From Desulfobacterales bacterium (GTDB lineage Bacteria; Desulfobacterota; Desulfobacteria; Desulfobacterales; JASJAZ01), in the NCBI GenBank assembly GCA_030066785.1, contig JASJAZ010000020.1:1-43786 (forward strand): DNA of 43,786 nt. The letters are read 5' to 3'. The translations under genes were made by a program, and so were the position numbers. The notes under the pieces were generated by a model. That model saw only the letters and a list, made by a program, of their open reading frames with translations, searched no databases and was not told where the DNA came from. Position 1 is the first letter of the stretch, and each line of letters starts with the position of its first letter. Shown piece by piece: positions 4,587-35,835 of the stretch.

Positions 4587-5789
4587 TTACCGGGCTACAA
4601 ACTCAATTTTCAGAACATTATCTAAAATTTCATAAATATTTACGCCAAAAGAATCAAACGATTTCAACATCAGCCCTTCCGCCAATTTCTTGGCATCGCC
4701 CTGGTATTCGACCAATAGCGTTGCTTGATCGGTGGTCATTTCCTGCGTCTTTAGATTTTTAACGCCCTGTATCTCATTAAGTGCCCTGCGAAATTTCGCA
4801 AAGTGGGCCAAAATACGTGTGCCTTTGACATGAATCTTTACCGTACCGGCCTGATCCGCAACTTTTTGCAAGGCGGCCGCAATTCGGGAAGACAGTATTT
4901 CGGCTGCCAGGGTGCCGGCATTTGAAAGTGCATCTTTGCCACCTTTGTATTCATCTACATCCGCGGTTACGGCGGACTGGCGCAAGGACGCGATTTCCTC
5001 ACCTGTATCTATTCTGATGGCCCGCAGATTTAAAACCCCTTCAAATGAACCAACCTCTTCACCCATAACATTGGATGTCCTGTACGAAACCGCCGATCCA
5101 ATAATGGCAACATCAGCACCAAAATTGGCAGCAATGTTGGCAGCATTAAGATTGTTTAAATCCGGCGTTTCCGCCAGTTCCGATAAATCCAGACCGGGTG
5201 GCATCCGGCCATGGCGCATAATCCTAAAGCCTTTGCTGCGCATCGTTTCGGCCAATGCTTTTTCTGCCGCCCCATAGAAGTAGGCTGAACCTTTTCCCCA
5301 CCAATAGCGCGAAATCTCATCCAAATTTTGCTCAGCGATAAAAAGCAGGATCTTGGCTTTGATTTTGCGGTCCAACACGAATCCGATGGCGGTGAGTTGC
5401 TTGCGTATGCGTGCCAACGAAACAGAGACCTGGACCATCACACGGTAGGTTTTTTCGGATGTGGTTTCGGTGAGCACCTTGTAATTTCGAATATAGGGTG
5501 CGGTATCTTTTAACAAAACGTTATTAAGATTTTCAAAATTGCGCACCATGGCATCTACTTCGAGAATATCGCGCGTTGCCAGGCTAACCGCCGTTACCAG
5601 GCTGTTGGCAATAGCGATATCACGAGCCGCGGCAATGTTATCTTTGCGGATACTGGATGTACCGATGACTTCAAAGGTTTTTACAGAGACGTTCTTTTTG
5701 GCCCAGGCAGCCGGGACCGTCAACATCAAAAGAACAATTACCACCATCAACGACAATATTCGATACACAACGGAAACAATGGGCGCCAT
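4587..5789 (-). CDS. Exported protein of unknown function, FlgT/LPP20-like N-terminal region
   Basis: 400 residues with a clear Sec signal peptide (hydrophobic stretch at about 10-28, AWA cleavage site). The part after it (ARDIAIANSLVTAVSLATRDIL) resembles repeats found in flagellar assembly protein T and LPP20-type lipoproteins, but there is no lipobox. The middle region, about 200-310, resembles a periplasmic Rossmann-like fold (ADVAIIGSAV). No catalytic motif is recognised. The ribosome binding site AGGAGG precedes the ATG. It lies on the same strand between a polyprenyl synthase gene and pgsA; no flagellar genes are nearby, so a motility role is not supported. Confidence 0.7.
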   Translation of the reverse strand: MAPIVSVVYRILSLMVVIVLLMLTVPAAWAKKNVSVKTFEVIGTSSIRKDNIAAARDIAIANSLVTAVSLATRDILEVDAMVRNFENLNNVLLKDTAPYIRNYKVLTETTSEKTYRVMVQVSVSLARIRKQLTAIGFVLDRKIKAKILLFIAEQNLDEISRYWWGKGSAYFYGAAEKALAETMRSKGFRIMRHGRMPPGLDLSELAETPDLNNLNAANIAANFGADVAIIGSAVSYRTSNVMGEEVGSFEGVLNLRAIRIDTGEEIASLRQSAVTADVDEYKGGKDALSNAGTLAAEILSSRIAAALQKVADQAGTVKIHVKGTRILAHFAKFRRALNEIQGVKNLKTQEMTTDQATLLVEYQGDAKKLAEGLMLKSFDSFGVNIYEILDNVLKIEFVAR

Positions 5790-8273: not shown

Positions 8274-9239
8274 TCAGCTTTTCAATTTTTTAACTTCCGC
8301 GGTAATCAGAGGAATAATTTCATGCAAATCTCCTACGATCCCATAATCGGCTTTAGCAAAGATCGGTGCTTCATCGTCTTTATTGATGGCAACAACGACT
8401 TTGGAAGATGACATTCCCGCCAGATGCTGAATCGCACCCGATATTCCACACGCAATATATAGATTGGGGGCCACGGTCTTTCCGGTTTGTCCGACCTGAT
8501 CCGAATGGGGGCGCCAACCCTCGTCGACGGCTGACCGGCTGGCACCAACCGCGCCACCCAGCGCGTCCGCCAGTTGCTCCACAGCAGTGTAATCGGTACC
8601 ACCCATCCCGCGTCCACCGGATACAATGATATCCGCTTCGGTTAATTCAATCTTGCCGGCTTCAATCTTCTTCTCAATAAATTTCAAAACAGAATCGCCG
8701 ATATTGATATCACATGGGGCCACTGTCCCCGCCCCATCAGTTTCAAGGATGGCAAATGCGTTGGGCCGTATGGCCACAATCGGTGCTGCGCCCTCAAAGG
8801 TCACTTCTGCAAGAACTTTGCCGCCGTACATGGGGCGAGTGGCCACCAAATTATCAGTTTCCACACGAATTGCCACGCAATCCATTGCCAGGGGCGCATT
8901 GATGCGTGCCGATAATCGCGCAGCCAAATCCTTGCCCTGGGTCGTAGCCCCCAATATGACCGCCACCGGTTGTTCGGCCGTGATGGTTTCCGCGGCAACG
9001 TGGGTATAGGTGTCTGTCATGTATTCCGCCAGAGCCGGCTGATCAGCTACAATAATGGCGTTGGCGCCATATTTGCCAAGGTCCGCAGCTGCATCTGAAA
9101 TGCCGTCACCCAAAACCAAGGCTTTTAATTCTGCCCCCAGACTTTCAGCGATACGCCGGCCTTCACTAAGCGCTTCAAATGTTACTTTCCGAAACACACC
9201 ATCAACTTGTTCTGCAATTGCTAAAACGTATTGTGCCAT
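8274..9239 (-). CDS. etfA: Electron transfer flavoprotein subunit alpha
   Basis: 321 residues. EtfA binds FAD and, with EtfB, carries electrons between acyl-CoA or other dehydrogenases and membrane oxidoreductases. The C-terminal FAD domain is clear: VSGGRGMGG, then GQTGKTVAPNLYIACGISGAIQH split across the pocket, then a KVVVAINKD segment and an IVGDL end. The ATG follows AGGAG at good spacing, 30 bp after etfB. No extra ferredoxin domain is present, so it looks like the ordinary short EtfA. The partner dehydrogenase is not in the window. Confidence 0.95.
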   Translation of the reverse strand: MAQYVLAIAEQVDGVFRKVTFEALSEGRRIAESLGAELKALVLGDGISDAAADLGKYGANAIIVADQPALAEYMTDTYTHVAAETITAEQPVAVILGATTQGKDLAARLSARINAPLAMDCVAIRVETDNLVATRPMYGGKVLAEVTFEGAAPIVAIRPNAFAILETDGAGTVAPCDINIGDSVLKFIEKKIEAGKIELTEADIIVSGGRGMGGTDYTAVEQLADALGGAVGASRSAVDEGWRPHSDQVGQTGKTVAPNLYIACGISGAIQHLAGMSSSKVVVAINKDDEAPIFAKADYGIVGDLHEIIPLITAEVKKLKS

Positions 9240-9269: not shown

Positions 9270-10052
9270 TTAAATCACCTTTGCTTCTTCGCGCAATAAT
9301 TTAACCAGTTCTGAGGCTTTTTCCTGAGCAGTATCACCTGCAATCATTTTACCGCCCGTTCGTTCCGGCGGATATTGCATCGTAATGATTTTAGTGGTGG
9401 CGGTAATTTCCGTAGCCGGATCAAAACCGATATCAGCAAGGGTTTTAACATCCAACGGCTTTTTCTTGGCTTTCATGATTCCCGGCAAAGACGCATAGCG
9501 GGGCTCATTCAGACCCCGTTGGGCTGTGAACAGTGCCGGCAAAGTTGCCTCCAACACAACATTGCCGCCTTCGATGGCTTTATGACACGTAATTTTCCCA
9601 TCGTTGATCTCTTCGGCAATCACCATGGAAATACTGGGAATGCCCAGTATCTCAGCCACAGCCGTGCCGACCTGATAATTATCGTCGTCGACCGCACGCA
9701 TGCCGGCAACAATCACGTCGTAAGGCATTGCCTTTAAAGCTGCAGCCAGCACCTTGGCAATACCCAAACCATCCAAATCTTGGGCGGCCGCATCATTAAC
9801 CAATATGCCTTTATCAGCGCCCATGGCCAGGGCCGTTCGTATGGCCTCTACGGTTTTGTCGGCTCCAACAGAGAGAATGGTTACGGTTCCGCCATGTTTT
9901 TCTTTAATCTGAATGGCTTCTTCCACCGCGAATTCATCATAAGGATTAATAACGAATTTCACATCCTCCTTTTTGATGGATACATTATCATCTGCAATCT
10001 GAACCAGCGATTCAGTTGCCGGGACCTGTTTTAATAGGACAACAATTTCCAC
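9270..10052 (-). CDS. etfB: Electron transfer flavoprotein subunit beta
   Basis: 260 residues, standard size. The N-terminus MEIVVLLKQVPATE, the NPYDEFAVEEA segment and the AMRAVDDDNYQVG segment are EtfB hallmarks. The start is a GTG preceded by AAAGGAG. It is the first gene of etfBA, with a candidate promoter at 10138-10166 and a terminator after etfA. EtfB in other species binds AMP or a second FAD in bifurcating types; the sequence alone does not settle which applies here. Confidence 0.95.
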   Translation of the reverse strand: MEIVVLLKQVPATESLVQIADDNVSIKKEDVKFVINPYDEFAVEEAIQIKEKHGGTVTILSVGADKTVEAIRTALAMGADKGILVNDAAAQDLDGLGIAKVLAAALKAMPYDVIVAGMRAVDDDNYQVGTAVAEILGIPSISMVIAEEINDGKITCHKAIEGGNVVLEATLPALFTAQRGLNEPRYASLPGIMKAKKKPLDVKTLADIGFDPATEITATTKIITMQYPPERTGGKMIAGDTAQEKASELVKLLREEAKVI

Positions 10053-10230: not shown

Positions 10231-13200
10231 CTAAAATGCAGCCATCGCCTTATTGATTAATCCCGATGCATCGCAATCTTCCCCGGCCTTTTTGGTTGAT
10301 AAACCCAACCTTATTTTTATATGCATACCATCATTCTTAAACAACTCGTCACTGGCGTCCACCTGCAAACGCTTACATAGTAACTGAGCTTCTTCTAGCG
10401 GTGTTTGGGGCATTAAAATCGCAAACATTTGGGCTTGAAAGCGACCCACAGTGTCAAAAACACGAAAAATTTTTGACATTGAATTGCACATTACCTGCAA
10501 TATGCGCTCTTGCGATTGATAATTCAAGTTCGAGTGAACCGAATGCGTAAATTTTATAAAACATAATGAAAGATCGTCATCGTATCTTTTGGCTCGATGT
10601 AATTCCGTTTCCAAAATTGCAAGAAAATTCTCGCGATTGTAATATCCGGTGGCGTCATCCGTTTTTTTGATATCTACAAGAAATTGTGAAACTTTCTCGA
10701 GCCGATCACAGACGCCTGTCAGCAAATTAAGCAGCAACTTTTGAACTGCCGGTGGGTATAGCCATTGAAGTCGCTGGATCATTTTCCAGTTAATTTGCAA
10801 TAATTCCACCGGTTCGGTCGCCATAACAGTTGCCGATCTGGGCACGGAACGCAACAATCCCATTTCCCCCAAAATATCACCCTTTTTCATGCGATTCATA
10901 ATCTTCTGGCTGCCTTGCAATTGGCAGGATTGATCATCAGTTTGCGGATCTAGTGCGGCTAATGCGCCGGAAACAACTGTGTACATGGAGTCACTGGGAT
11001 CTCCTTTGTTAAAAATGATTTCACCTGCATCGTATTTTTTCAGGGCTCCGGCCATAATAATATAGTGAACCTGCGTCCGGGATAAGCCTTTAAAAAGGGG
11101 AATACCGTACCGGGGCTCTTTGCCCAATTTAAGCCGAACCAGATCCCATAGGGTAACCAGTTCAACATGTTGCATCAGTGAGGGTAGCAGGATCAAATCA
11201 CCAACCAATGCGGAAAACATCGTGATGATCATCATTATTCCAAAAACAGCTGTGGGCTTGAAACTCGAAAAGAAAAGGATCGCAAAGCCTAAGCTTATCG
11301 TAATCGTGGTAAAAATAATCGGCCTACCCACATGGGTAAGCGTTTCCTTTAGCGCCCTTTTAGCATCCAAATCTTTTTGAAATTCTTTGTTGTAGCGAAC
11401 CAGATAGTGAATCGTGTCATCAACCGCCAGACCAATGGCGATACTGGCAATAAGGCTTGTAACCATTGATAGCTCAATACCCAACCAGCCCATGATGCCA
11501 AAAGTGACAATAATTGGGAACAAATTGGGTACAATGGCGATGAGTCCCACTTTGCTGGATAAAAACAAAAGGAACATAATCGCAAACACCAAAACCATGG
11601 TAATCGAAAGGCTCTTGATTTGACCATTGGTAAGTTGGTGACTGCTGGCCGAAATGGAGATGCCGAATCCGGTCACTTCCCAATTTATGTCCTTGGAAAA
11701 ATTCTGTGACGTGAATTCGAGAATCTTGGCGCGGAGATCTAAAAAGGCGCGGGAGCTGGAAATGTGCGTCAGCAATACGATATTTGTCTTGGACAAATCG
11801 GTGTTCATGAAACGGTCAAACAAGTCCTGGCCAAGCATGGCCGGAAAATTATTAATTACCATTCGGACTTCGAAGCCTTCCTCAGGCAGTACGTAAAATT
11901 TGGGATCAAATTGATTTAAAGCAAAATTCACCAGTTGCATGTAATCAGCAAAGGAAATCGTCTTATCGACACCGGGGAGTTTTTCTAAAAAGGTTTGCAG
12001 ACGGGTGATGTCAGCAACATGCTCTGGGTTCTCGAAATAGTCACTCTCTTTGTGCCCCATTACAATATTGACGGGGAAACTGCCCGAAAGTACCTGATAG
12101 ATATCTTCAAAATTACGTTTTACCGGTGTGTTTTCACGGAAATATCCGACAGGATTGGTCTCCACCTGTAACCGCAAAATTCCAAATAAACAAATCAACG
12201 TAAATATCGCAATAATGGGCAAGACAAGCCGTTGACGGTTTAAATTGCAGTCAACGATCCGTTTGATGATTGGCAGAATAAAATTTGATTTTTCACCTTC
12301 TTTCTTCGTATTATTCGGCAACGGAATCAGAGTAAGTACCGCCGGTATAAAAGAAAGTGAAATGACCAGAATGCTGAGCATTCCAAAACAGGAAAAAATG
12401 GCGAACTCACGGATTGCTGGAATCCGATTTACTAAAAGCGACCCCAGACCGATGATCGTGGTTAGAACAGCCAAAGAGGTAGGAAAATATATATAGGCAA
12501 AGGTTGCCAAGACGGCATCACGCGTTGATTCGGCTTTGTTTGAGCAGGCAATATATTCCGAGACGATATGTAAGCAGTAGGCCGTCCCCACGGCAATTAG
12601 AAACACCGGTACGATCATGGTGAGCATGGACAGTGGTATTTTAATCAAGGCCATGAGGCCAAACGTCCAAATCAATGCCAAGCCCACACACGTAAATGGA
12701 ATAAATACATACCGAAACCGGCGAAACAGAATCAAAAGGACAAATCCAATTATAAAAAAGGTAAGCGGCGGCAGGTATACAAAGTCTTTCTGGGTCAATT
12801 GTGCCAGCGCTTGGGAAACCAGCGGCATGCCTATCTGGTAAAGGGTAAGATTGCGGGGGGGGTCGGTAATTAGTTTGTTGATCGACTGAATAATTTGTTC
12901 TAAATCGGCTTCATTTTGCAGCACCAATGTTAGCGCCGTCGTCTTCCGGTCAGCAGAAAAAATGTTTTTTTGAAATAGTTGTACTTGAGAGACGACTGCA
13001 AAAAACTTTTCTAAATCCCAACTATCGGAAACATCAATTGCTTTCTTGATTACCGGTAGACTGATAACTCTGCGAACACCCTCTATTTCTGAAACTGCTT
13101 CCGAAAGTTGGGAAATCTTTTTGAAAGTTAAATCGTCAAAAACATTCTCCGCCTTGATAACAATCCGAATAATCTCATCGGATCCAAACATCTTTTTGAA

Positions 13201-13395
13201 TTCTTCATAGCGGGCTGTCTCAGGAAAATTGTCAATCTGAAGATCATATACAGAGGTCTTAAAAGATAATTTGGGAATCTGCCATGCGAAAACGACTGAA
13301 ACCAAGGATATCGTAAGAATAATTGTTACGGGCTTTTGAACAATGGCTTCTAAAAATCTATGAAAAGATAGGCGGCGTATGATTTTTTTGAGCAT
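10231..13395 (-). CDS. RND-superfamily (HAE3/MMPL-like) exporter fused to cyclic-nucleotide-binding and degenerate GGDEF domains
   Basis: 1054 residues in three parts. Residues 1 to about 770 form a two-repeat RND permease: an N-terminal membrane helix, a periplasmic loop, a helix bundle (about 215-375), a second helix and loop, and a second bundle (about 600-750). The second bundle carries an acidic GLAVDDTIHYLVRY segment of the kind used for proton coupling. Residues 776-885 form a cyclic-nucleotide-binding domain; its phosphate cassette GEMGLLRSVPRSATV begins at 843. Residues 911-1054 resemble a GGDEF domain (DATGYYNR start), but the signature site at 985-991 reads RFQAQMF, so diguanylate cyclase activity is unlikely. 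The gene precedes etfBA on the same strand. Substrate and ligand are unknown; a nucleotide-gated lipid or hydrophobic exporter is inference. Confidence 0.8.
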   Translation of the reverse strand: MLKKIIRRLSFHRFLEAIVQKPVTIILTISLVSVVFAWQIPKLSFKTSVYDLQIDNFPETARYEEFKKMFGSDEIIRIVIKAENVFDDLTFKKISQLSEAVSEIEGVRRVISLPVIKKAIDVSDSWDLEKFFAVVSQVQLFQKNIFSADRKTTALTLVLQNEADLEQIIQSINKLITDPPRNLTLYQIGMPLVSQALAQLTQKDFVYLPPLTFFIIGFVLLILFRRFRYVFIPFTCVGLALIWTFGLMALIKIPLSMLTMIVPVFLIAVGTAYCLHIVSEYIACSNKAESTRDAVLATFAYIYFPTSLAVLTTIIGLGSLLVNRIPAIREFAIFSCFGMLSILVISLSFIPAVLTLIPLPNNTKKEGEKSNFILPIIKRIVDCNLNRQRLVLPIIAIFTLICLFGILRLQVETNPVGYFRENTPVKRNFEDIYQVLSGSFPVNIVMGHKESDYFENPEHVADITRLQTFLEKLPGVDKTISFADYMQLVNFALNQFDPKFYVLPEEGFEVRMVINNFPAMLGQDLFDRFMNTDLSKTNIVLLTHISSSRAFLDLRAKILEFTSQNFSKDINWEVTGFGISISASSHQLTNGQIKSLSITMVLVFAIMFLLFLSSKVGLIAIVPNLFPIIVTFGIMGWLGIELSMVTSLIASIAIGLAVDDTIHYLVRYNKEFQKDLDAKRALKETLTHVGRPIIFTTITISLGFAILFFSSFKPTAVFGIMMIITMFSALVGDLILLPSLMQHVELVTLWDLVRLKLGKEPRYGIPLFKGLSRTQVHYIIMAGALKKYDAGEIIFNKGDPSDSMYTVVSGALAALDPQTDDQSCQLQGSQKIMNRMKKGDILGEMGLLRSVPRSATVMATEPVELLQINWKMIQRLQWLYPPAVQKLLLNLLTGVCDRLEKVSQFLVDIKKTDDATGYYNRENFLAILETELHRAKRYDDDLSLCFIKFTHSVHSNLNYQSQERILQVMCNSMSKIFRVFDTVGRFQAQMFAILMPQTPLEEAQLLCKRLQVDASDELFKNDGMHIKIRLGLSTKKAGEDCDASGLINKAMAAF

Positions 13396-13486: not shown

Positions 13487-14578
13487 TCAATTTAAAAAAA
13501 TCCGAGTGAAACCTTCTGAATAGTAATCAACTAGCTCTCCGGTGCTTTCCCTTACAACGATAAGGCATTCCGCTCCACTGAGACGTTTAACCAAAGCAAG
13601 CCCTTTTTCGTGACCCATCACCATAACAGCCGTTGCTAAACCATCCGCAAAGGTGCACGTATCGGCAACAATGGAAACGCTGACCACTCCGTTGCTTACG
13701 GGGTAACCGGTTTTAGGGTCTAAAACATGGGAATAACGGCGCCCGTCAATTTCAAAAAAATTCCGATAATCCCCGCTGGTGGCAAGCGCTTTATTTTGCA
13801 AATCAATTACTTTGTGCACCGCATGCATCGCAGCCTCCTTACGAGGCTGATTGATACCCACCCGCCAAGCACGCTTATCTCTACGTTGACCGGCGGCATA
13901 GATCTCGCCACCAATTTCAACCAGAAAATTAGCGACACCTTCGGCACGCAGCAGTTCAGCAATTTGATCAACACCAAAACCTTTCGCTATGGAGGCCAGG
14001 TCCAGCGTTACTTTCGCATGGCGTTTGAATAAATAGCCCTCTTCAGATAAGCGTATCAGATGAAAACCGATATTCCTTTTCAGCAGATCGATTTCCTCAA
14101 TGGATGGTACTGTATTTTTCTGCTGGGCGTTGCCAAATCCCCACAGGTTGACCAATGGTTTCACAGTCCCATCCCAGGCCCCACCGGTTTTGTTATAAAG
14201 ATCCGCAGCAACGATCATAACATGCAAAAAGTCTTCAGACACCTCAAATTTTTCATCAATGCGATGAAGAGCGTTGAATCGGCTGATTTCACTGTCCGGC
14301 AAATAAGTGGACATGCTCTGATTGATTTCCTTTAGCCGTTCATCAATTTTTTTCTTGAGCAAATCTGTGTTTTTAAAAACATTGGCCACAATTTTAACGG
14401 TGTAAGTTGTTCCCATGGTGCGGCCCGTGATAACAATTTCCCTTTTTAATAAACATCCACTCAGCAGTGCAAGGCAAGTTAGGGCAGCAGCCAGCAGTAA
14501 TCCCCATTGCGGCCGACCAGCCCAGGAGCAATTCTTCAACCTTTGCAAACAACTTTGATTACCAACAGTTAAATGCAT
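13487..14578 (-). CDS. apbE: FAD:protein FMN transferase (ApbE), lipoprotein
   Basis: 363 residues. ApbE attaches FMN covalently to threonine or serine in target flavoproteins such as Rnf or Nqr subunits, on the outer face of the membrane. A lipobox (L39-S40-G41-C42) follows a hydrophobic stretch, so this is a membrane-anchored exported enzyme. ApbE hallmarks include GRTMGTTYTV, the DLASIAKGFGVDQ segment, the EIGGE segment and a late ADGLATAVMVMG metal-site region. It lies directly after hypE on the same strand. No ApbE substrate gene is seen in the window. Confidence 0.92.
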   Translation of the reverse strand: MHLTVGNQSCLQRLKNCSWAGRPQWGLLLAAALTCLALLSGCLLKREIVITGRTMGTTYTVKIVANVFKNTDLLKKKIDERLKEINQSMSTYLPDSEISRFNALHRIDEKFEVSEDFLHVMIVAADLYNKTGGAWDGTVKPLVNLWGFGNAQQKNTVPSIEEIDLLKRNIGFHLIRLSEEGYLFKRHAKVTLDLASIAKGFGVDQIAELLRAEGVANFLVEIGGEIYAAGQRRDKRAWRVGINQPRKEAAMHAVHKVIDLQNKALATSGDYRNFFEIDGRRYSHVLDPKTGYPVSNGVVSVSIVADTCTFADGLATAVMVMGHEKGLALVKRLSGAECLIVVRESTGELVDYYSEGFTRIFLN

Positions 14579-14651: not shown

Positions 14652-15662
14652 TTAACAAATGCGGGGCAATTGCTCACCCGCCAACATATCAACAATTCGC
14701 TGTCCACCAATGCGCGTTTCCATAATCACACGCCCCGGGTGATCTCCCACAACCTCACCAATAACCGTACTTTCGCGACCATACCCATCCGAACGCATGG
14801 CCTTCAGAACCACATCGCAATTGCGCGCATCAACAAAGGCCAGCAGTTTGCCTTCATTGGCCAAATAGAGCGGATCAAACCCCAGCAATTCACAGATGCC
14901 GGCAACTTCCTTTTTAATGGGCAATTTATCTTCCAAGATTTTTATTCCAACATTTGATTTCTCGGCAATTTCGTTCAGGGCTGTTCCGACACCACCCCGG
15001 GTCGGATCGCGCAACACATGTATTTCGTGACTGGCATCAAACATTTTAGCCACCATGTGGTTGAGTGGTGCCGTATCGCTTTTAACCGATGCTTTAAAGT
15101 TAAATCCCTCCCTCTGGGTGATTACGGTAACGCCGTGATCTGCAATAGTCCCGCTAACAATGATTTGATCACCAATTTTGGCGCCATCACTGGCCACATG
15201 AACACCATCGCGAATCAAACCAATGCCCGATGTGTTAATAAATACTTTATCAACTGCTCCTCTTGGCACCACCTTGGTATCACCGGTAACGACCATAACA
15301 TTTGCCCGGCGGGCTGCTTTACCCATTTCAGTTAAAATCTTTTCAAGTTTGGCCATGTCAAAGCCTTCTTCAATAATTAAGCCGACACTCAAATAACCGG
15401 GAATGGCGCCACACATGGCAATATCGTTTACGGTTCCGTTGACGGCCAGGTCGCCGATGTTGCCTCCTGGAAAAAAAATCGGATCGACGGTGTATGAATC
15501 GGTGGAGAAAGCCAAGCGCTGGCCTCCCAACTCAAAAACGGCACCATCATTAAGCTGGGAAAGAATCGGGTTGTCAAAAATCGGCAGCATGACATCGATG
15601 GTTAATCGATGGGAAATTTTCCCGCCGCTGCCATGGTCCAAAAGAATCTGATCTTTTTGCAT
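14652..15662 (-). CDS. hypE: Hydrogenase maturation factor HypE
   Basis: 336 residues. HypE takes a carbamoyl group from HypF onto its C-terminal cysteine and dehydrates it to a thiocyanate, the source of cyanide ligands for the Fe of [NiFe] hydrogenase. The last four residues are PRIC, the family's reactive tail. The N-terminus has HGSGG and later NDIAMCGA and GDTKVV, the PurM-fold ATP-binding segments. SelD and PurM share the fold, but the PRIC tail and hyp context fix the call. It follows hypD by 109 bp. Confidence 0.96.
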   Translation of the reverse strand: MQKDQILLDHGSGGKISHRLTIDVMLPIFDNPILSQLNDGAVFELGGQRLAFSTDSYTVDPIFFPGGNIGDLAVNGTVNDIAMCGAIPGYLSVGLIIEEGFDMAKLEKILTEMGKAARRANVMVVTGDTKVVPRGAVDKVFINTSGIGLIRDGVHVASDGAKIGDQIIVSGTIADHGVTVITQREGFNFKASVKSDTAPLNHMVAKMFDASHEIHVLRDPTRGGVGTALNEIAEKSNVGIKILEDKLPIKKEVAGICELLGFDPLYLANEGKLLAFVDARNCDVVLKAMRSDGYGRESTVIGEVVGDHPGRVIMETRIGGQRIVDMLAGEQLPRIC

Positions 15663-15771: not shown

Positions 15772-16863
15772 TCAGTCCGCATGATATCGAAAATAGGCCG
15801 CGCAGGTTCCTTCCGTCGATACCATGCAAGGCCCGACGGGGTCTGTGGGGGTGCAGGCCTTCTTATAAAGCGCACATTCCGGTGGCGTTTTATGACCTGT
15901 AAGAATTTCACCACAAGCACAGCCTTTAAGGGACTTTGAACTCCCTACTGATACATCAAAACGCTTAGCCGCATCATGTACCGCGAAAGCATCACGTATT
16001 TGCAATCCGCTTGCCGGTATGATGCCGATGCCTCGCCAGCATGCATCGGCAATTTCAAATATCTCTTTTAGAAGATCCTGTGCTTTGGTATTGCCTTTGT
16101 TAGTGACGGCGCGTGGATAAGCATTGTCCAGTCGTGGCGTTTTATCTTTTATTTGCGTAACCAGCATTTGAATAGCACTAAGGATATCAGTAGGTTCAAA
16201 TCCGGCCACGACACATGGAATGTTATAACGGTCAAAAAATGGACGGTAGGCCTCTAATCCGATGATGACTGACACATGCCCCGGTAAAATAAACCCATCG
16301 ATCTCTACATTCTCCAAGCCCATTAAGGCCTCTAATGCCGGCGGCACCAATTTGTGGGCGCTGATAACGGAAAAATTATCAACATTGTCCTGAGCGGCAG
16401 ATTTAATCGCAGCCGCAATGGTAGGGGCGGTGGTTTCAAATCCAACGCCTAAAAAAATGATCTGTTTGTCCGGATGATCTTTAGCCACCTGCAAAGCATC
16501 AAATGTGGAGTACACCATCCGAATATCCTGGCCGGCTGCCCGTTCGTTTTGCAAAGAAGAATTGCTGCCGGGTACCCGCATTAAATCGCCAAAAGTAGTA
16601 ATAATGACATCATCCTGCCGGGCAAGTTCAATAAAGGCATCAATCTCGCCCTGGTCGGTTACACACACGGGACATCCGGGCCCAGATAGCAGGGCAATCG
16701 TGTCCGGTAATATCGATCGGATACCACTGCGAAAAATGGAAACCGTATGCGTACCGCACACCTCCATCAATCGGATGTTTTGGGTGCTGGTTGCATGTAT
16801 ACGATTAGCAAGATGCTTGGAAATTTCAGCATCACGATACTCATCTGAATGTTTAATTGGCAT
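15772..16863 (-). CDS. hypD: Hydrogenase maturation factor HypD
   Basis: 363 residues, normal length. HypD is a 4Fe-4S scaffold that, with HypC, assembles the Fe(CN)2CO group. The conserved CGTHT and SGPGCPVCVT motifs, the GFETTAP segment, the PGHVSVIIG segment and the C-terminal cluster cysteines (CACGEIL, later CALY and CMVS) are present. It lies 53 bp downstream of hypF on the same strand. Confidence 0.97.
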   Translation of the reverse strand: MPIKHSDEYRDAEISKHLANRIHATSTQNIRLMEVCGTHTVSIFRSGIRSILPDTIALLSGPGCPVCVTDQGEIDAFIELARQDDVIITTFGDLMRVPGSNSSLQNERAAGQDIRMVYSTFDALQVAKDHPDKQIIFLGVGFETTAPTIAAAIKSAAQDNVDNFSVISAHKLVPPALEALMGLENVEIDGFILPGHVSVIIGLEAYRPFFDRYNIPCVVAGFEPTDILSAIQMLVTQIKDKTPRLDNAYPRAVTNKGNTKAQDLLKEIFEIADACWRGIGIIPASGLQIRDAFAVHDAAKRFDVSVGSSKSLKGCACGEILTGHKTPPECALYKKACTPTDPVGPCMVSTEGTCAAYFRYHAD

Positions 16864-16916: not shown

Positions 16917-19202
16917 TTATGCTTGGCACTGGATCGCGGCAGCAATAACCGCCTGGCCCAGTGCCAGCCCCCCATCATTGCACGGCACCTGTTCATGGGT
17001 ATAAACCTTAAACCGGTGTTGCTCCAAAGCACGTTTTAAACCGCTTAGCAATGTGGCATTTTGGAACACACCGCCACTCAATACAACCCGATCCAAACCA
17101 CTGTCTTTCCTTATGGCGACACACACATCGGCAAATAGCCGTATCAGGGTATAATGAAATTTGGCACCGATTTGAGCAATAGATACCCCGCTTTGTAAAT
17201 CAGTCAGCACGCCTCGAATAATCGGCGCGGGCGGAACTTGAAAAACGTGATCTTTTTGCCATTCAAATTCATACAAACCGTCGGCCCGACCATCTGACAG
17301 CATCTCAAGTTCCATGGCGGCTTGGCCTTCGAATTTAACATGCGAACGGATACCGAGTATTGCCGCCACACCGTCAAAAAGCCTTCCGAGGCTGGAGGTC
17401 AGAGGGGCGTTGATCTGCTTGGTGATCATGGTTGATACAGTGGTAAGTTTTTCGGGCGCGATGTCTTTGAGACCGGGAACCGACCACTCTTGAAAATTGC
17501 TGCCAACAGCATCTTGGAGATAGCTGACGGCCATGCGCCAAGGCTCCTTAATCGCCGCGGAACTGCCCGGCATTGTAACAGGACCTAAGTATCCGATTCT
17601 TTTGAAGGTATGATTTTCAGAGAGCAGGATTTCACCGCCCCAAACAGTGCCATCGGGTCCGAAGCCGGTGCCGTCAAAGGCCAGGCCGATCACCGGACCT
17701 TCCAACTGGTGCTCCGCCATGCAACTAACGACATGGGCATGATGGTGTTGTACCGGCACTTTAATCACATCATTTTGCGCAATGGCATACTGGCTGCTCA
17801 GATAATCCGGATGCATATCATAACCGATAATTGTCGGCGTTATGTCCAGTATACGCTTCAGGTGATCAATGGTCAGTTTGAAAAAATCATAAGTAGCCAG
17901 ATTAGAAAGATCGCCGATATGCTGACTTAGAAAGGCTTTGTCATTTTTGGTAACACAGATCGTATTTTTTAATTCAGCACCGCAGGCCAACACAGAGGGA
18001 AGCTTATGCTTTAAAAATACCGGGATTGGCACGTATCCACGTGATCGCCGAATATAGCGGGAAGCCCCAGCGGCATGTCGCACAATGGAATCATCGCTAC
18101 GTAAATAAATGTCACGATTGTGAATCAAAAAGTAATCGGCGATGTCTCCCAAGCGCTTAAACGCCTCGTCATTGTCAATGGCTATCGGTTCTTCACTTAA
18201 ATTGGCACTGGTCATCACCAGTGCGGTAAAGTCTTCCGATAAAAGCAGATAATGCAGAGGCGTATAGGGCAGCATTACACCGAAATATTGATTGCGCGGT
18301 GATACTTCAGAGGCGATTGGGTGGGATTGCTTTTTTTGCACCAAAACAATCGGTCGCTGAATAGATGTTAAAAGCGATTCTGCTTCGGAATCGATTTCAG
18401 CAAACTGTTTAATTCGTTTCACATCTTTGGCCATTAAGGCCAGGGGCTTTTCTTCGCGCCGTTTGCGCCTGCGCAGGCGGACGACCGCTTCTGAATTTTC
18501 AGCATTGGCGCACAGATGGAATCCGCCCAGACCCTTGATGGCTAAAATAGATCCTTCTTGCAACAGCCGGGCAGCCGCTTTGATGGGATCTTCAGCGACG
18601 ATTTCTTGGCGATGGCGGTCAAGTAGGAAAACGCGGGGACCGCAGTCGGCACAGGCGTTGGGTTGGGCATGGAAACGTCGATCGTTAGGATTGTCGTATT
18701 CGGTCTGGCAGTGCGTGCACATTTTAAAATGCCGCATGGATGTCTTGGGTCGATCATAGGGAATATCATCGATGATCGTATAACGTGGACCGCAGTTGGT
18801 ACAATTAGTAAATGGATAACGATAGCGACGATTATGAACATCAAACAATTCCCGCAAACAATCGTTGCAGATGGATACATCCGGCGAAATTAGCGTGGAG
18901 ATTGCCAAATCACTTTGACTGGTAATAATCCTGAAATCCGAAAAATTCTGAACCGCCTGTGGTTTTTCAGTAATTTCAACAATATGTGCTAAGGGTGGGC
19001 ATTTGGCGGAAAGGTCTGTCGTAAAAGATGACACCCGATCGATGGAACCTTCAATATGGATGGAAACCCCTGAGGAAGTGTTGGCAACCGTTCCTTTTAA
19101 TTGATATTGAGCAGCAAGTTGGAAGACATGCGGCCGAAAGCCAACGCCTTGAACAATGCCGTTAACTTTCAGCTTTTTTGCAACAATTGCTTTGGCCATC
19201 AT
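16917..19202 (-). CDS. hypF: Carbamoyltransferase HypF
   Basis: 761 residues, full length. HypF makes carbamoyl-adenylate from carbamoyl phosphate and transfers the carbamoyl group to HypE. Four parts are seen in order: an acylphosphatase domain at about 8-98 (GVGFRPHVFQ); two zinc-finger pairs of CxxC type (CNDC/CTNC and CTHC/CADC) at about 110-190; a YrdC-like domain at about 205-390 (KGLGGFHLCANA); and a Kae1-like C-terminal domain with the metal-binding HHHAH and GLAFDGTGFGPDGTVWGGE. It starts 8 bp after hypC. Two adjacent ATG codons leave the start uncertain by one residue. Confidence 0.97.
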   Translation of the reverse strand: MMAKAIVAKKLKVNGIVQGVGFRPHVFQLAAQYQLKGTVANTSSGVSIHIEGSIDRVSSFTTDLSAKCPPLAHIVEITEKPQAVQNFSDFRIITSQSDLAISTLISPDVSICNDCLRELFDVHNRRYRYPFTNCTNCGPRYTIIDDIPYDRPKTSMRHFKMCTHCQTEYDNPNDRRFHAQPNACADCGPRVFLLDRHRQEIVAEDPIKAAARLLQEGSILAIKGLGGFHLCANAENSEAVVRLRRRKRREEKPLALMAKDVKRIKQFAEIDSEAESLLTSIQRPIVLVQKKQSHPIASEVSPRNQYFGVMLPYTPLHYLLLSEDFTALVMTSANLSEEPIAIDNDEAFKRLGDIADYFLIHNRDIYLRSDDSIVRHAAGASRYIRRSRGYVPIPVFLKHKLPSVLACGAELKNTICVTKNDKAFLSQHIGDLSNLATYDFFKLTIDHLKRILDITPTIIGYDMHPDYLSSQYAIAQNDVIKVPVQHHHAHVVSCMAEHQLEGPVIGLAFDGTGFGPDGTVWGGEILLSENHTFKRIGYLGPVTMPGSSAAIKEPWRMAVSYLQDAVGSNFQEWSVPGLKDIAPEKLTTVSTMITKQINAPLTSSLGRLFDGVAAILGIRSHVKFEGQAAMELEMLSDGRADGLYEFEWQKDHVFQVPPAPIIRGVLTDLQSGVSIAQIGAKFHYTLIRLFADVCVAIRKDSGLDRVVLSGGVFQNATLLSGLKRALEQHRFKVYTHEQVPCNDGGLALGQAVIAAAIQCQA

Positions 19203-19210
19203 AACACGCT

Positions 19211-19459
19211 TTAATCTTTGCTGCGATCACCCCCTTCATTCTCTACCAATGCCGCTGCTTCTTTCAACAATGTCAAGGTCTCTTTAGCTGCCGACTCGTC
19301 AATTTGCTTAATGGCAAAGCCGGCATGCACGATAACATAATCACCAACAGCGGCATCTTCCAGTAACAGCAGGCTGGCCTGCCTCTGCACACCATCGACA
19401 TCGATGGTGGCTATTTCGTTTTCAATCTTGGTTATTTGGGATGGAATTGCAAGACACAT
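19211..19459 (-). CDS. hypC: Hydrogenase assembly chaperone HypC
   Basis: 82 residues. HypC delivers the Fe(CN)2CO group from HypD to the large-subunit precursor through its cysteine at position 2. The start is set at the ATG giving MCLAIPSQI, because this N-terminus is invariant in the family and AAAGGA lies about 9 nt upstream; the 11 upstream residues of the longer frame are not expected. The gene overlaps the end of the protease gene by 38 bp. The C-terminal ALVENEGGDRSKD tail is not conserved. Confidence 0.93.
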   Translation of the reverse strand: MCLAIPSQITKIENEIATIDVDGVQRQASLLLLEDAAVGDYVIVHAGFAIKQIDESAAKETLTLLKEAAALVENEGGDRSKD

Positions 19460-19988
19460 ATTCCGATGGTCCTTTCTTGTTATATGAAACACCCAGTCGG
19501 TTCAACTCCGCCAACACCAATTCAATCACAACATCCAGCTGCGCCTGAACCGCTGGCGTCAATTCGGTCGCGAGGGTATCGATGTCCTGGGGCTCTACGC
19601 CAATGATCACCGTTTGCGGGACATGACCCAGTGCCTTGCATAGCGTTAAAGCTTCAAGAAAATCGACCTGATGGATCGAATTTTTGGCGCGAATCCGCTC
19701 TGGTATGGCGCCTCCCTCTAATCGATAGATATCACCCGGCTTGCCCTTGTTGCGAATCGCATCGACTACGATTAAATGCTTGGGTTTGGAGATAACGCCT
19801 AAAAGATTTACCCCCAGAACCCCACCATCAACAATGAGCACTTTCTCTGAAAAATCATAGCAGCGCTCCATTTTCTCAATAACGCGCACACCAAAACCTT
19901 CATCTGAAAACAGCGTACTGCCAATGCCCAAAATCATCACATGGGTGGCATAAATATCGTCGAACGGATTTCTATCTTCAAAGGTCAT
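19422..19988 (-). CDS. Hydrogenase maturation protease (HyaD/HybD/HynD family)
   Basis: 188 residues. The nickel-sensing endopeptidase removes the C-terminal peptide of the large subunit once Ni is in place. GIGSTLFSDEGFG holds the first metal-ligand glutamate. VDGGVLG follows, and the histidine in NSIHQVDFL is the likely third ligand. Its expected substrate here is the VID... tail of the large subunit encoded just upstream. No good ribosome binding site precedes the ATG at 19988; a start nearer the conserved MILGIGS is possible. A strong hairpin separates it from the structural genes. Confidence 0.9.
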   Translation of the reverse strand: MTFEDRNPFDDIYATHVMILGIGSTLFSDEGFGVRVIEKMERCYDFSEKVLIVDGGVLGVNLLGVISKPKHLIVVDAIRNKGKPGDIYRLEGGAIPERIRAKNSIHQVDFLEALTLCKALGHVPQTVIIGVEPQDIDTLATELTPAVQAQLDVVIELVLAELNRLGVSYNKKGPSEYVSCNSIPNNQD

Positions 19989-20252: not shown

Positions 20253-21902
20253 TTACAATGCTTTGACTTTGTAAACCTGGTTGGAATCCGGATCAATAAC
20301 ATGGACACCACAGGCAACACACGGATCAAAAGAATGCACGGTTCGTAAAACTTCCAGCGGCTTTTTGGGATCGGCAATTGGGGTACCGATAAGCGCTTCT
20401 TCTACCGGGCCTCGCTTACCTTTTTCATCGCGCGGACCGAGGTTCCAGGTGGAAGGAACAACATATTGATAATTTTTAATTTTCCCGTTTTCAATATGCA
20501 GATAATGACTTAAAGCACCCCGGGGTACGTCATTCAAACCGACACCCATGGCTTTTGCCGGCATATCCCAGGATTGATACGTCTCTGTATCACCGCTTTT
20601 GATGTTTTCCACCAATTCTGTAACCCAACCCTGCATCGCTTCGCCGATTACAAGACACTGAACACCCCGTGCCGCCGTGCGGCCGAGGGTTGAGAACAGT
20701 GCTGTTGCCGGAATTCCCAAATCGGTCAGAATTTTATCCACCACGGCCTTAACCTGTTTGTGACCGCTGCCATAAGCCACCAAAGTGCGGGCCAGCGGGC
20801 CGACCTCACATGGTTCGCCCTCATAACGCGGTGCCTTGAACCAGGAGTACTTACCGTCGCCTGGTTTGTATTTGGGATCTTCTTGGAGGGGATTGGTTTC
20901 GCCTTCGTAGGGGTGCTTGGCGCCGTTGCCCTTGTACCAGGCCCGGGCAACATGCTCGGAAACTTTCTTTTCTTCCGCCATTTGCACACCAGCTAGATCG
21001 CGTTTCATGACCACGCCGCGGGGCATAAACAAGCTTTCCGGCTCCTGATCCGTCAGGGGAAAATCACCCCAGGCCAACTGGTTGGTGGTCCCGCCGTAAG
21101 CGCCCCAATCCTTGTAAAAGGAAGCCACCGCTAATAAATCGGGGATATAAACATTTTTAATGAATTCTTGTGATTCTTTGGTAATATAAATGAATTCCGC
21201 GATTCTATCCGGGGTGAGATCTTTTACACACGTTATGCCGCCAACGACCAAGGACTGTGGATGGGGATTTTTCCCACCAAATATGGCGTGCAACCGTGCC
21301 GTTCTGGCTTGCAGCTTTAAAGCTTCAATGTAATGTGCAGCGGCCATTAAGTTGGCTTCGGGCGGCAGCTTATAAGCTGAATGGCCCCAATAAGCATTGC
21401 TGAAAGGCCCTAATTGGCCACTGTCGACAAAGGTCTGTAAGCGTTGCTGCACATTTTTAAAATAGGTAGAGCCTCCCCAAGGTGCATTGCTGACATTGTC
21501 TGCCAGGGCGGCTGTTTTCTTGGGATCTGCTTTTAAAGCACTGACGATATCCACCCAATCCAACGCGTGCAAATGATAGAAATGGACTAGATGGTCATGC
21601 TGCACTTGGGCCCCATGCAACAGGTTGCGAAGGATTCGCGCGTTTTTGGGTATTTTAACACCAACCGCATTTTCGACTGCCCTCACCGAGGACAACGCAT
21701 GGATGTACGTTCAGACCCCGCAAGATCGCGCCACAAAGTGCTGCGCATCGCGCGGATCTCGCCCTTCCAAAATTAATTCAATGCCTCGAAACATTTGACC
21801 CGAGCTCCAGGCATTGACGACCTTGCCTCCGGCCACCTCAACCTCGATTCGCAGGTGCCCCTCTATTCTGGTGATTGGATCAATTGTTATTCGTTGTGCC
21901 AT
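20253..21902 (-). CDS. [NiFe] hydrogenase large subunit with a predicted selenocysteine (in-frame TGA) at residue 64
   Basis: 549 residues if the single in-frame TGA at 21711-21713 is read through. The protein is homologous on both sides of the stop: it reads HFVARSCGV, then UGA, then [18 protein letters not shown]. This matches the group 1 large-subunit L1 motif RxCGVCTYxHA, with the stop exactly at the second cysteine, which in solved enzymes bridges Ni and Fe. The C-terminal motif DPCVACGVH keeps both cysteines, and the 15-residue tail starting VID is the usual protease-removed extension. The enzyme should oxidise H2 in the periplasm with the Tat-exported small subunit, passing electrons to c-type cytochromes. 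If the TGA is not recoded, the gene is dead; intact flanking sequence and the SECIS-like stem argue against that. Confidence 0.85.
21676..21696 (-). promoter_or_regulatory. Candidate bacterial SECIS hairpin
   Basis: Within the large-subunit mRNA, GTCCTC and GAGGGC pair around a three-base GGU loop (21685-21687). Outer U-A and G-U pairs extend the stem to 9 bp. Exactly 23 nt separate the UGA from the loop. A guanine at the start of the apical loop and a spacing of roughly 16-37 nt are what the published bacterial SECIS model expects for SelB binding. The stem lies in a conserved coding stretch (SSVRAV), so chance pairing must be excluded by comparing homologues. Confidence 0.65.
21711..21713 (-). 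other. In-frame TGA, predicted selenocysteine codon
   Basis: Minus-strand context is TGC GGG GTC TGA ACG TAC. It replaces the TGC/TGT expected for the second cysteine of the CGVC motif. A single C-to-A change or base-call error would also give it; the hairpin just downstream favours recoding. Confidence 0.7.
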
Positions 21903-21949: not shown

Positions 21950-22894
21950 CTAGATTTCTTCATAAAAAGGGGTAAATTTATCCCAGAAGCCAGGTTCGCT
22001 GCAACCAATGCAGGGGTGTCCGGCTTCAACCGGCCAGCTGGTCCCATCATTAAATTTGGCCACCGGGCAGTTATTGTAAGTCTCAGGGCCCCGGCAACCG
22101 ACCTTGTAAAGACAATAACCCATGGCCGCCTCTTCGGACCCGAATTCTTCGACAAGTTCGTCGTTTTCAAAATGGGAACGGCGCGGACACTGATCGTGAA
22201 TGGTTTTGCTGTATGCAAACAATGGACGCCCTAAATCGTCTATGGCGGGTAATTTGCCTAAAAGTAAATAGTTAACAACGGTTCCAACAAAATTGATGGG
22301 GTTGGGCGGGCACCCAGCGATGTTAATGGTCTTTATGCCCAGGGCTTCGCCAACACCTTTATAGCCACCCGGGTTCGGGGCGGCCGCAGGAATGTTGCCA
22401 TATGCAGAGCACGATCCAATACAGATCGTGGCGGCAGCATTGGGAATAACCTCTTTGGCGATGTCAAGAAAGGATCGACCACCGACTTTACCGTAGCCGC
22501 CATCATACTTGGTGGCAACCGCACCTTCCGCTACACAGATAAATTTACCTTTGTACTTTTTCATCGCCATGTGCAACTGGTCTTCGGCCTGCTGCCCAGC
22601 AGCTGCCATGATGGTTTCATGATACTCAACGGAGAGAACTTCAAGGACGAGATCATCGACATACGGATATTGACTCCGCAAAACTGATTCGGAGCATCCG
22701 GTGCATTCGCCGAAATGGAGCCAGATGACCGGCGGTCGCTGTTTGGGGGCTGCAAATACTTCCGCCACTTTGGGAACAAACGATGACGACAGTCCCATGG
22801 TCGCCGTCAAAAACGTACAGAACTTCATGAAGTCCCGACGCGAGGCTCCTTTTTTTTCCAGTCTTTCGTAAAATTCTTTCTTTTCTTTTTCCAT
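21950..22894 (-). CDS. [NiFe] hydrogenase small subunit, Tat-exported
   Basis: 314 residues. The small subunit carries the Fe-S relay from the active site to the electron acceptor. A Tat signal (SRRDFMKF, then a hydrophobic stretch) is at about 18-50. The proximal cluster begins with GECTGCSES. CIGSCSAYGNIPAA and the C-terminal HDQCPRRSHFE, CLYKVGCRGPETYNNCP and HPCIGCSEPGFWD segments supply the other cluster ligands. No C-terminal membrane anchor is present, so a soluble periplasmic enzyme is expected. The ATG at 22894 is 5 nt after GGGAGG; an upstream GTG overlaps the ribosome binding site and is unlikely. The large subunit starts 47 bp later. Confidence 0.96.
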   Translation of the reverse strand: MEKEKKEFYERLEKKGASRRDFMKFCTFLTATMGLSSSFVPKVAEVFAAPKQRPPVIWLHFGECTGCSESVLRSQYPYVDDLVLEVLSVEYHETIMAAAGQQAEDQLHMAMKKYKGKFICVAEGAVATKYDGGYGKVGGRSFLDIAKEVIPNAAATICIGSCSAYGNIPAAAPNPGGYKGVGEALGIKTINIAGCPPNPINFVGTVVNYLLLGKLPAIDDLGRPLFAYSKTIHDQCPRRSHFENDELVEEFGSEEAAMGYCLYKVGCRGPETYNNCPVAKFNDGTSWPVEAGHPCIGCSEPGFWDKFTPFYEEI

Positions 22895-23056: not shown

Positions 23057-23102
23057 CCAAAAACTAAAAGGTATCGAGGCACATGACTCGATACCTTTTA
23101 GT
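23057..23102 (-). terminator. Leader terminator or attenuator upstream of the hydrogenase operon
   Basis: A perfect 16-bp inverted repeat (actaaaaggtatcgag 23063-23078, ctcgataccttttagt 23087-23102) with an 8-nt loop is followed on the minus strand by a T-run. It lies about 70 nt downstream of a good minus-strand promoter and about 165 nt before the small-subunit start. No gene ends here, so it would either attenuate the hydrogenase mRNA or end a small RNA. TAAAAGGT occurs a second time just 5' of the stem and could compete for the 3' arm. Confidence 0.7.
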
Positions 23103-25967: not shown

Positions 25968-26055
25968 GGAGGGATGGCCGAGTGGTTTAAGGCGGCGGTC
26001 TTGAAAACCGTTGAGCTTCACGGCTCCGTGGGTTCGAATCCTACTCCCTCCGCCA
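25968..26055 (+). tRNA. tRNA-Ser (anticodon TGA)
   Basis: Acceptor ggaggga/tccctcc, a long variable arm as expected for class II tRNA-Ser, anticodon loop with TGA (tcttgaaaa), T-loop gttcgaatc, encoded CCA at 26053-26055. Confidence 0.95.
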
Positions 26056-26090
26056 TTGCTTTTACCTAAAAAAATTAAGCGTCAAATTTT

Positions 26091-26183
26091 GGAGAGATGG
26101 CCGAGCTGGCTGAAGGCGCTCGCCTGCTAAGCGAGTGTGGGGGGAAACTTCCACCGAGGGTTCGAATCCCTCTCTCTCCGCCA
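26091..26183 (+). tRNA. tRNA-Ser (anticodon GCT)
   Basis: Acceptor ggagaga/tctctcc, anticodon loop ctgctaa with GCT, a long variable arm, encoded CCA at 26181-26183. It lies 35 bp after the first tRNA-Ser and probably shares its transcript. Confidence 0.95.
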
Positions 26184-31868: not shown

Positions 31869-31924
31869 ATTGACCTCCTATCAAACCGGCATCCATAGTC
31901 TCCGCCGGCTCTACTAATATACCG

Positions 31925-34267: not shown

Positions 34268-34279
34268 GGATTATTCCTC

Positions 34280-35557: not shown

Positions 35558-35664
35558 ACTGTTTCCTCCGTACATCATTAAGTTGAATCGGTTAACAACA
35601 GTGGGGCTTGATTCTTGCCAACCGGATACATTGCTGCCACCAGCTTCGCGTATCCAAATACATC

Positions 35665-35691
35665 AATATTTTGAAAAATATTCAAAATATT
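35665..35691 (-). promoter_or_regulatory. AT-rich inverted repeat in the qmoA leader
   Basis: AATATTTTGAA and TTCAAAATATT, perfect 11-bp arms around a 5-nt loop, about 20-45 nt downstream of the predicted qmo start site. It fits a dimeric repressor site or an mRNA hairpin; no matching regulator is known to me. Confidence 0.5.
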
Positions 35692-35716
35692 TAGGCACTT
35701 GGACACGAAAGAGCGG

Positions 35717-35745
35717 ATTATAATACGATTGCGGCAACCGGTCAA
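35717..35745 (-). promoter_or_regulatory. Strong sigma70-type promoter of qmoABC
   Basis: TTGACC (35740-35745), 17-nt spacer, perfect TATAAT (35717-35722) on the minus strand. The predicted start is near 35710, with about 150 nt of leader. The rest of the 35558-35876 gap holds only the palindrome and the aprA terminator. Confidence 0.75.
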
Positions 35746-35796
35746 GGCTTAACTCGGCCGCCAACGCGGCTCAAAATAGAATCGCCTGCTTATGAT

Positions 35797-35835
35797 AAAA
35801 AAATGCCTCCAAGCACACTTGGTGCCTGGAGGCAT
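35797..35835 (-). terminator. Terminator of aprBA
   Basis: A 14-bp stem (35803-35816 with 35822-35835) with one non-Watson-Crick pair and a 5-nt loop, followed on the minus strand by T7. It ends the aprBA transcript and makes qmoABC depend on its own promoter. Confidence 0.85.

Follow-up and report, generated by a model that had tools for sequence, protein, structure and literature searches.

An RND permease with cyclic-nucleotide-binding and degenerate GGDEF domains in a [NiFe]-hydrogenase operon of Desulfobacterales

The 43,786-nucleotide contig JASJAZ010000020.1 of a Desulfobacterales bacterium (assembly GCA_030066785.1), which was analysed as a whole and is called the window here, encodes a 1054-residue protein (10231..13395, minus strand) that joins an RND permease to a cyclic-nucleotide-binding (cNMP) domain and a degenerate GGDEF domain. 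The subfamily to which this protein belongs is tied to [NiFe]-hydrogenase operons, and its tail is interchangeable on the RND core, a histidine kinase taking the place of the cNMP tail in 22 of the 61 members. Each of these domains is already known; what appears to be new, as judged by the open-access papers listed in a literature search, is an RND core with exchangeable nucleotide-binding or kinase tails in hydrogenase operons. We give about even chances to the reading that the window protein is a proton-coupled RND transporter which is controlled by its tail, through cyclic nucleotides, as part of a [NiFe]-hydrogenase programme.

A hydrogenase-linked subfamily with exchangeable tails

At 43 of the 61 subfamily loci the RND gene has a hydrogenase or hyp gene at a distance of at most 10 kb (with same-strand genes at 40), versus 1 of 35 loci in the more distant tiers. 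By tail, the counts are 24/39 for cNMP-tailed proteins (24 same-strand) and 19/22 for kinase-tailed ones (16 same-strand), and among the distant relatives 1/12 in tier F2 (opposite strand) and 0/23 in tier F3. The position within the operon varies, the RND gene being found elsewhere between the genes for the large subunit and the protease, or between hypC and hypF. To judge by gene position, the RND gene of the window can be regarded as a component of a [NiFe]-hydrogenase operon. At the level of genomes, the same hydrogenase subtype, called at an E value of 1e-215 (a cut-off set by ourselves), occurs in 39 of the 43 RND carriers versus 138 of 389 genomes overall (Fisher p 1.8e-15, kinship ignored). 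Since 99 of these 138 genomes have no RND gene, the link is directed from RND to hydrogenase and not the reverse. Papers on RND-cNMP proteins, RND-kinases or hydrogenase-linked RND proteins were absent among the matches listed in a search of the open-access literature by title and opening of the abstract.

These counts come from a search of 389 genomes of the order, 395 of the phylum and a group of named genomes (57 loci, close relatives only). The comparison set of 104 loci consisted of the window, 15 of the 57 named-genome loci and 88 stretches from order and phylum genomes; some order and phylum matches, among them those in G083, G161, G318 and G612, lie outside the flank comparison. Removal of redundant loci (L164, L146, L091, L090, L198) and of broken RND genes (L041, L042, L049) left 96 proteins: 39 close cNMP-tailed ones including that of the window, 22 close histidine-kinase-tailed ones, 12 intermediate ones (F2) and 23 distant ones (F3). 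The three broken genes, in draft genomes, have split frames or a missing inner stretch, and their neighbouring hydrogenase genes are present. Tiers were set by identity to the window's RND protein, except that L171, L185 and L192 (44–46%) were moved by hand to F2 because of a decayed phosphate-binding cassette, and L170 was scored as kinase-tailed though missed by the first pattern. Two proteins assigned to F2, L187 and L189, group within the close clade in the tree, with a long branch.

Of the 389 order genomes, 43 contain close members, as do other genomes of the phylum outside the order, and the 15 named loci, at 46–62% identity, all have Desulfobacterota-type titles. The window's genome holds one full-length copy. 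A GGDEF-like part is present in 37 of the 39 close cNMP-tailed proteins and absent in L034 and L035, and F3 consists mostly of RND-cNMP proteins without it (L222 and L223 are RND alone). Since RND-cNMP proteins of roughly 915 residues without GGDEF are found in many genomes of the phylum, this half of the architecture cannot be called rare; the description as rare is retained for the hydrogenase-linked subfamily. The survey across Desulfobacterota that the annotation had proposed thus found the architecture to recur, and it added the hydrogenase setting and the tail exchange, neither of which could be seen from the single sequence. It also disposes of the idea that a sequencing or annotation error fused separate genes. 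The source assembly is a draft of 278 contigs, which would leave room for such an artefact, but there are 39 distinct close RND-cNMP proteins, 37 of which (the window's included) share the full architecture, and the reading frame is open without stops; we give an artefact virtually no weight.

That tails are exchanged follows from a tree of 91 RND cores from which the tails had been excluded (five further rows, L203, L165, L192, L191 and L193, were omitted). It requires at least six tail changes, three of which are forced by starred branches, and none of 500 label shuffles gave as low a number; the exact number of changes is uncertain, as the tree results from a quick search and has some long branches. 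Both tail types follow the same junction helix after transmembrane helix (TM) 12 (ELVTxWDLL, residues 745–757, 11125..11163, minus strand), in which Trp-Asp makes up 100% of the aligned letters in the 39 cNMP-tailed and 22 kinase-tailed proteins. Counted from this Trp, the cNMP motif starts after 14 residues in 30 of 39 cNMP-tailed proteins (those where the pattern matched), and in all 22 kinase-tailed ones the phospho-acceptor His lies 18 residues further on. By pattern, the kinase tails have an H-box in 22/22 and an N-box in 20/22 cases, and Pfam confirmed HisKA and HATPase_c on the two that were scanned (L038 and L040). Eight genomes (G032, G050, G115, G120, G144, G166, G188 and G301) contain both tail types. 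At locus L156 an RND-kinase gene and an RND-cNMP-GGDEF gene stand in tandem in one hydrogenase operon. In having the kinase directly after a transporter, the kinase-tailed sisters resemble CbrA, where a histidine kinase is joined to an SLC5 domain; unlike CbrA, the transporter part is RND and the kinase His follows 18 residues after the junction Trp.

The kinase-tailed loci also differ in their surroundings. With tblastn markers, genes for a PAS-kinase and for a receiver were each detected at 19 of the 22 loci, and a second type of hydrogenase at 13/22 versus 0/39 cNMP-tailed loci. The count of 13 is a best-marker assignment; a second tally, in which the queries for this hydrogenase cross-matched the catalytic one, was set aside. 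At L038 the open reading frame (ORF) of the second small subunit begins one base past the stop codon of the RND-kinase gene and is followed by genes for a large subunit, a PAS-kinase and a receiver; the small subunit and the PAS-kinase were identified by Pfam, and no twin-arginine motif is visible by eye in the former. Of 12 distinct second large subunits, eight end 4–6 residues past DPCLVCxVH and four end 10–24 unconserved residues past it, so they are without the IDP.SN.VY-type C-terminal extension shared by the catalytic large subunits. Absence of this extension is typical of H2-sensing regulatory hydrogenases. Thus L038:11971-16940 and similar loci probably encode an H2-sensing system directly behind the RND-kinase gene. 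The gene content recalls H2 sensing by HoxBC-HoxJ-HoxA, as the second hydrogenase is mostly accompanied by PAS-kinase and receiver genes; unlike that system, the kinase-tailed loci add an RND-kinase, and H2 sensing is putative here. In the 17 of 22 loci where another kinase was found, the RND-linked kinase domain is 43–61% identical to the most similar one of the same locus.

These relatives give some ground for a different view, in which the RND core would chiefly detect some signal from the membrane or the periplasm that is related to H2 metabolism and pass it to the tail, the output being phosphorylation in the kinase-tailed forms and, in the window protein, integration or recruitment by the nucleotide-binding tail. 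The H-box found in all kinase tails and the fixed Trp-His spacing, by which no HAMP or PAS domain would fit ahead of the kinase, support such a view, and the frequent receiver, PAS-kinase and second-hydrogenase genes, with the small-subunit ORF of L038 starting right after the RND-kinase stop codon, point the same way. The protein would then be comparable to Patched or SCAP, in which the core is a sterol-sensing domain. On the other hand, the window protein is without an output domain, cNMP and inactive GGDEF domains normally being inputs, and the Asp pair of TM10 is conserved as in working transporters. We regard a mainly sensory core as possible, though clearly less probable than a transporter controlled by its tail.

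The RND core and the signalling domains

ORF analysis gave a single uninterrupted frame from ATG to stop for 10231–13395, as the initial annotation had it without naming the strand. The three domain assignments made there hold as well, since all Pfam matches exceed their gathering scores and the RND and GGDEF folds were matched in the PDB. All features of this section lie on the minus strand. MMPL (PF03176) matches in two stretches, and the profile exceeds its gathering score in both RND halves; the best match, 119 bits against a gathering cut-off of 20.5, covers residues 66–357 and defines the first half (12325..13200). The second half, about residues 584–745 (11161..11646), has Patched and SecD_SecF_C stretches in Pfam and helices in the AlphaFold model. 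The core is modelled with confidence and shows the RND fold, two large extracytoplasmic loops and twelve long membrane-type helices (counted by eye from the DSSP list). Its Foldseek matches in the PDB are MmpL4, MmpL5, MmpL3, NPC1L1, yeast NCR1, HpnN and Patched. With the HAE3 subfamily profile TIGR00921 the score is 244.3 bits, under the curated cut-off of 351.9, so that the protein is not placed in that subfamily.

In TM10, Asp659-Asp660 (GLAVDDTIH, 11416..11421) is the likely proton-coupling pair, judged by family conservation: the first Asp is present in 39/39 cNMP-tailed and 22/22 kinase-tailed proteins, the second in 39/39 and 21/22. In TM4 of the first half, aligned as GTAY, there is no acidic residue; the position that is usually acidic reads Ala-Tyr in the close cNMP-tailed proteins, with Ala in 36 of 39 and a gap or X in the other three. 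Thus, the core shares the fold, the two-half layout and the acidic pair of TM10 with the HAE3/MMPL branch (MmpL3/4/5 and HpnN, and the eukaryotic NPC1, Patched and Dispatched), from which it differs in the missing TM4 acid, the cytoplasmic tail of cNMP and GGDEF-fold domains, and the hydrogenase-operon setting. The one distant relative examined in this respect, L093, has a LolA-like partner gene beside it; the window's RND gene lies instead in a hydrogenase operon.

The cNMP domain spans residues 786–876 (10768..11040; PF00027, 66.2 bits against a gathering cut-off of 27.5), and in a sequence search of the PDB regulatory subunits of protein kinase A (PKA) ranked best. Its phosphate-binding cassette, GEMGLLRSVPRSATVMA (residues 843–859, 10819..10869), has both the Glu and the Arg expected of cyclic-nucleotide-binding proteins (Glu844 and Arg853), and in the 39 close proteins Gly and Glu are present in 39/39 and Arg and Ser in 37/39 each. 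Structure prediction, which the initial annotation had suggested as a check, was confident for the RND core and largely so for the GGDEF part; the cNMP part stayed below 50 in the predicted local distance difference test (pLDDT) in two AlphaFold models, one of the full protein and one of the tail alone, so that its assignment rests on sequence profiles. The alignment used for the first model mixed kinase and cNMP tails and that for the second held nine sequences only. As in the MloK1, SthK and HCN/CNG channels and in SLC9C1, the domain follows the last membrane helix and has the cassette Glu and Arg. Unlike these proteins, the window protein belongs to another transporter superfamily, and its gating is putative.

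The GGDEF-fold domain, residues 912–1050 (10246..10662), scores 43.7 bits in Pfam against a gathering cut-off of 23.8, and its Foldseek matches are GGDEF structures, many of them solved with cyclic di-GMP (c-di-GMP). QAQMF replaces GG(D/E)EF at residues 987–991 (10423..10437, in the context RFQAQMF), as had been noticed initially, and the motif is intact in none of the 37 close proteins that have this part; an active diguanylate cyclase can thus be rejected. At the position of the c-di-GMP inhibitory site, RxxD is present as RVFD (residues 978–981, 10453..10464) and is retained in 34 of the 37. Loss of the catalytic motif with retention of RxxD in a GGDEF fold is what characterizes the degenerate c-di-GMP receptors PelD, PopA and SgmT, and the proposal that the domain is a sensor or scaffold fits this pattern. 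From those receptors it differs in being joined to both an RND core and a cNMP domain, and c-di-GMP is a putative ligand. As a control, RxxD was also found in 14 of the 15 GGDEF proteins with an intact motif in the window's genome (15 of 23 GGDEF matches there have such a motif), which weakens RxxD as proof of c-di-GMP binding when taken alone.

It could also be supposed that the tail is in decay, or serves as a scaffold for localization, and that the protein is an ordinary efflux pump which lies near hydrogenase genes by chance. The loss of the GGDEF motif in all 37 proteins examined, the two close proteins in which the whole domain is missing, the decayed cassette of F2, and the 18 of 61 members near which no hydrogenase was seen fit this idea. 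We consider it improbable, given that the cassette is near-invariant among 39 proteins, that the junction Trp-Asp is invariant, and that hydrogenase linkage is far above that of distant RND proteins.

The hydrogenase operon of the window

On the minus strand the gene order is hydrogenase small subunit, large subunit, protease, hypC, hypF, hypD, hypE-like, apbE, RND, etfB-like, etfA and rimO-like. The small subunit (21950..22888) has a twin-arginine signal, with TIGR00391 at 395 bits and TIGR01409 at 23.8 bits, both above cut-off. It is followed by the large subunit (20253..21902, sequence and profile comparison), a maturation protease of the HyaD/HybD type (19422..19988; TIGR00140, 156 bits, cut-off 151.8), HypC (19211..19453; HupF_HypC, 86 bits), HypF (16917..19202; Pfam HypF domains) and HypD (15772..16863; PF01924, 513 bits). 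The AIRS-family protein at 14652..15662 (Pfam AIRS/AIRS_C) is presumably the HypE-like maturation protein, a name that we take from family knowledge and position. An ApbE-like flavin mononucleotide transferase (13487..14578; NCBIfam, 262 bits, below the equivalog cut-off of 498) lies directly upstream of the RND gene, and downstream are an EtfB-like electron transfer flavoprotein subunit (9270..10052; Pfam ETF) and the alpha subunit (8274..9239; ETF, ETF_alpha). A terminator-like hairpin of 16 pairs precedes the small subunit (23063..23102); it is the first of 23 such sites, versus 19.6 expected by shuffling, so that the class is not enriched overall.

The neighbourhood of apbE raises the question whether the RND protein exports something that the hydrogenase or a partner needs in the periplasm, such as flavin for ApbE, the regulatory part played by the tail being minor. 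The direct adjacency in the window, the presence of apbE within 2.5 kb at 11 of 39 cNMP-tailed loci, and the twin-arginine signal of the small subunit would agree with such a role. Since apbE is near only these 11 and 2 of 22 kinase-tailed loci, and not where the RND gene sits between large subunit and protease, and since we know of no RND flavin exporter, this explanation appears unlikely.

In the large-subunit gene, the second Cys position of RxCGxC, the L1 motif, is occupied by an in-frame UGA (21711..21713, minus strand; RSCGV-UGA), which probably encodes selenocysteine. By D. gigas numbering we take this Cys to be the bridging active-site Cys; in classical NiFeSe enzymes selenocysteine lies in the C-terminal motif, unlike the L1 UGA. 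Among the 30 best-scoring hydrogenase loci of the order survey, the L1 position is UGA in 18 and Cys in 12, the aligned part being otherwise free of in-frame stops, and the large subunits at L031, L036 and L049 have UGA at both L1 cysteines (RTUGVU / RVUGVU). A hairpin resembling a selenocysteine insertion sequence (SECIS) starts 15 nt after the UGA (21677..21695, minus strand). The corresponding block, (C/T)TG(T/G)CCTCGG(T/C)GAGG(G/T)CAG at 15 nt past the UGA, occurs in 28/28 distinct UGA-bearing and 0/20 Cys-bearing sequences. At this site 7 or 8 of 8 stem positions are predicted to pair in 26 of 28 UGA-bearing sequences versus at most one in Cys-bearing ones, so it is the specific hairpin that differs, as the mean folding energy after the L1 codon shows little difference (-11.5 versus -9.9 kcal/mol). 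SelB is present in the window's genome. A tRNA-Sec search of the draft genome gave eight matches, none above cut-off, and the one on the SelB contig was called tRNA-Arg by ARAGORN. In the relevant part of a selenoproteome review, UxxC is listed for hydrogenase alpha subunits and L1 is not mentioned (PMC13188914).

Elsewhere in the window, Pfam recognizes at 30717–38359 (minus strand) a beta subunit of adenosine 5'-phosphosulfate (APS) reductase, FAD- and Fe-S proteins and an FlpD-containing protein, a cluster which we take to resemble aprBA-qmoABC of a sulfate reducer. A 400-residue protein at 4587–5789 (minus strand), with a signal-peptide-like start by eye, had no Pfam or NCBIfam match at the cut-offs applied, and a tandem pair of tRNA-Ser genes lies at 25968–26183.

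Control by the tail and its place in the hydrogenase programme

Nine of the 61 subfamily loci have an adjoining class III nucleotide-cyclase gene with the same orientation as the RND gene, and PF00211 is above cut-off in all nine. The window's genome has seven class III cyclase matches. An FHA-cyclase lies directly upstream of the RND gene at L161 and L163 and about 1.2 kb upstream of the kinase-tailed copies at L172 and L173, a CHASE2-cyclase lies downstream at L158, L160 and L162, and cyclases of about 440 residues, with the cyclase as sole Pfam domain, lie downstream at L154 and L203. Seven of the nine belong to the 15 cNMP-tailed loci without hydrogenase nearby. Since the phosphate-binding cassette is conserved and cyclase genes adjoin these loci, direct nucleotide gating of the RND protein is the leading reading, as far as it can be drawn from sequence.

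A mechanism can be envisaged in which class III cyclases would supply the cyclic nucleotide that binds the cNMP domain, and in which the inactive GGDEF domain may take up c-di-GMP or GTP at RxxD. The conserved helix that follows TM12 would relay the binding state of the tail to the core. The core, of the MmpL/NPC1/HpnN type, would then move a substrate with the proton gradient, or change its state, within the H2 programme of the cell. The sister proteins combine the same core and helix with a histidine kinase and are often encoded next to a putative H2-sensing hydrogenase, which makes coupling of core and tail likely there too.

Several points weigh against control by cyclic nucleotides within a hydrogenase programme. 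The nine cyclase loci come from few genera and perhaps represent about three independent associations, and eight cyclase queries found no cyclase in the window. No hydrogenase gene is near 15 of the 39 cNMP-tailed loci; six of these have less than 6 kb of flank and one (L165) begins at the end of a contig, but eight (L158–L163, L168 and L169) have 9.7–17.6 kb. For L203 a further contig of its genome, G099, carries the other part of an RND gene together with this hydrogenase, so that this locus may be linked to hydrogenase after all. The F2 proteins, with the cassette Arg in 4 of 12, indicate that a tail can persist without the cassette, and to our knowledge many CRP/FNR-fold domains have a similar cassette with ligands untested. 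RxxD retention may be partly structural, given its frequency in ordinary GGDEF proteins, and as TM4 has no acid it is uncertain whether the core would transport by the usual two-sided relay. Binding, transport and phenotype are predictions.

The hydrogenase setting and the exchange with a kinase tail imply that the RND part may signal to the tail in addition to being controlled by it. The sequences do not fix the direction of coupling: the kinase-tailed relatives would argue for core to tail, the cNMP-tailed ones for tail to core. It is tempting, and for the present tentative, to see here a modular family of RND 'transceptors' in Desulfobacterota, in which a core and a fixed helix, with a cyclic-nucleotide/c-di-GMP tail or a kinase, would form a hydrogen-response switch at the membrane, together with hydrogenases of the catalytic and the H2-sensing kind.

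The known roles of RND proteins are those of a pump and, in animals, also of a receptor. If the modular proposal is correct, the present family would correspond, in bacteria, to Patched and other RND proteins of the receptor type. If the RND core is controlled by, or reports to, its signalling domains, the naturally swapped tails would offer a bacterial system for testing how core and output are linked. Desulfobacterota matter for H2 turnover in sediments, and the family points to an unexplained membrane component of their [NiFe]-hydrogenase operons.

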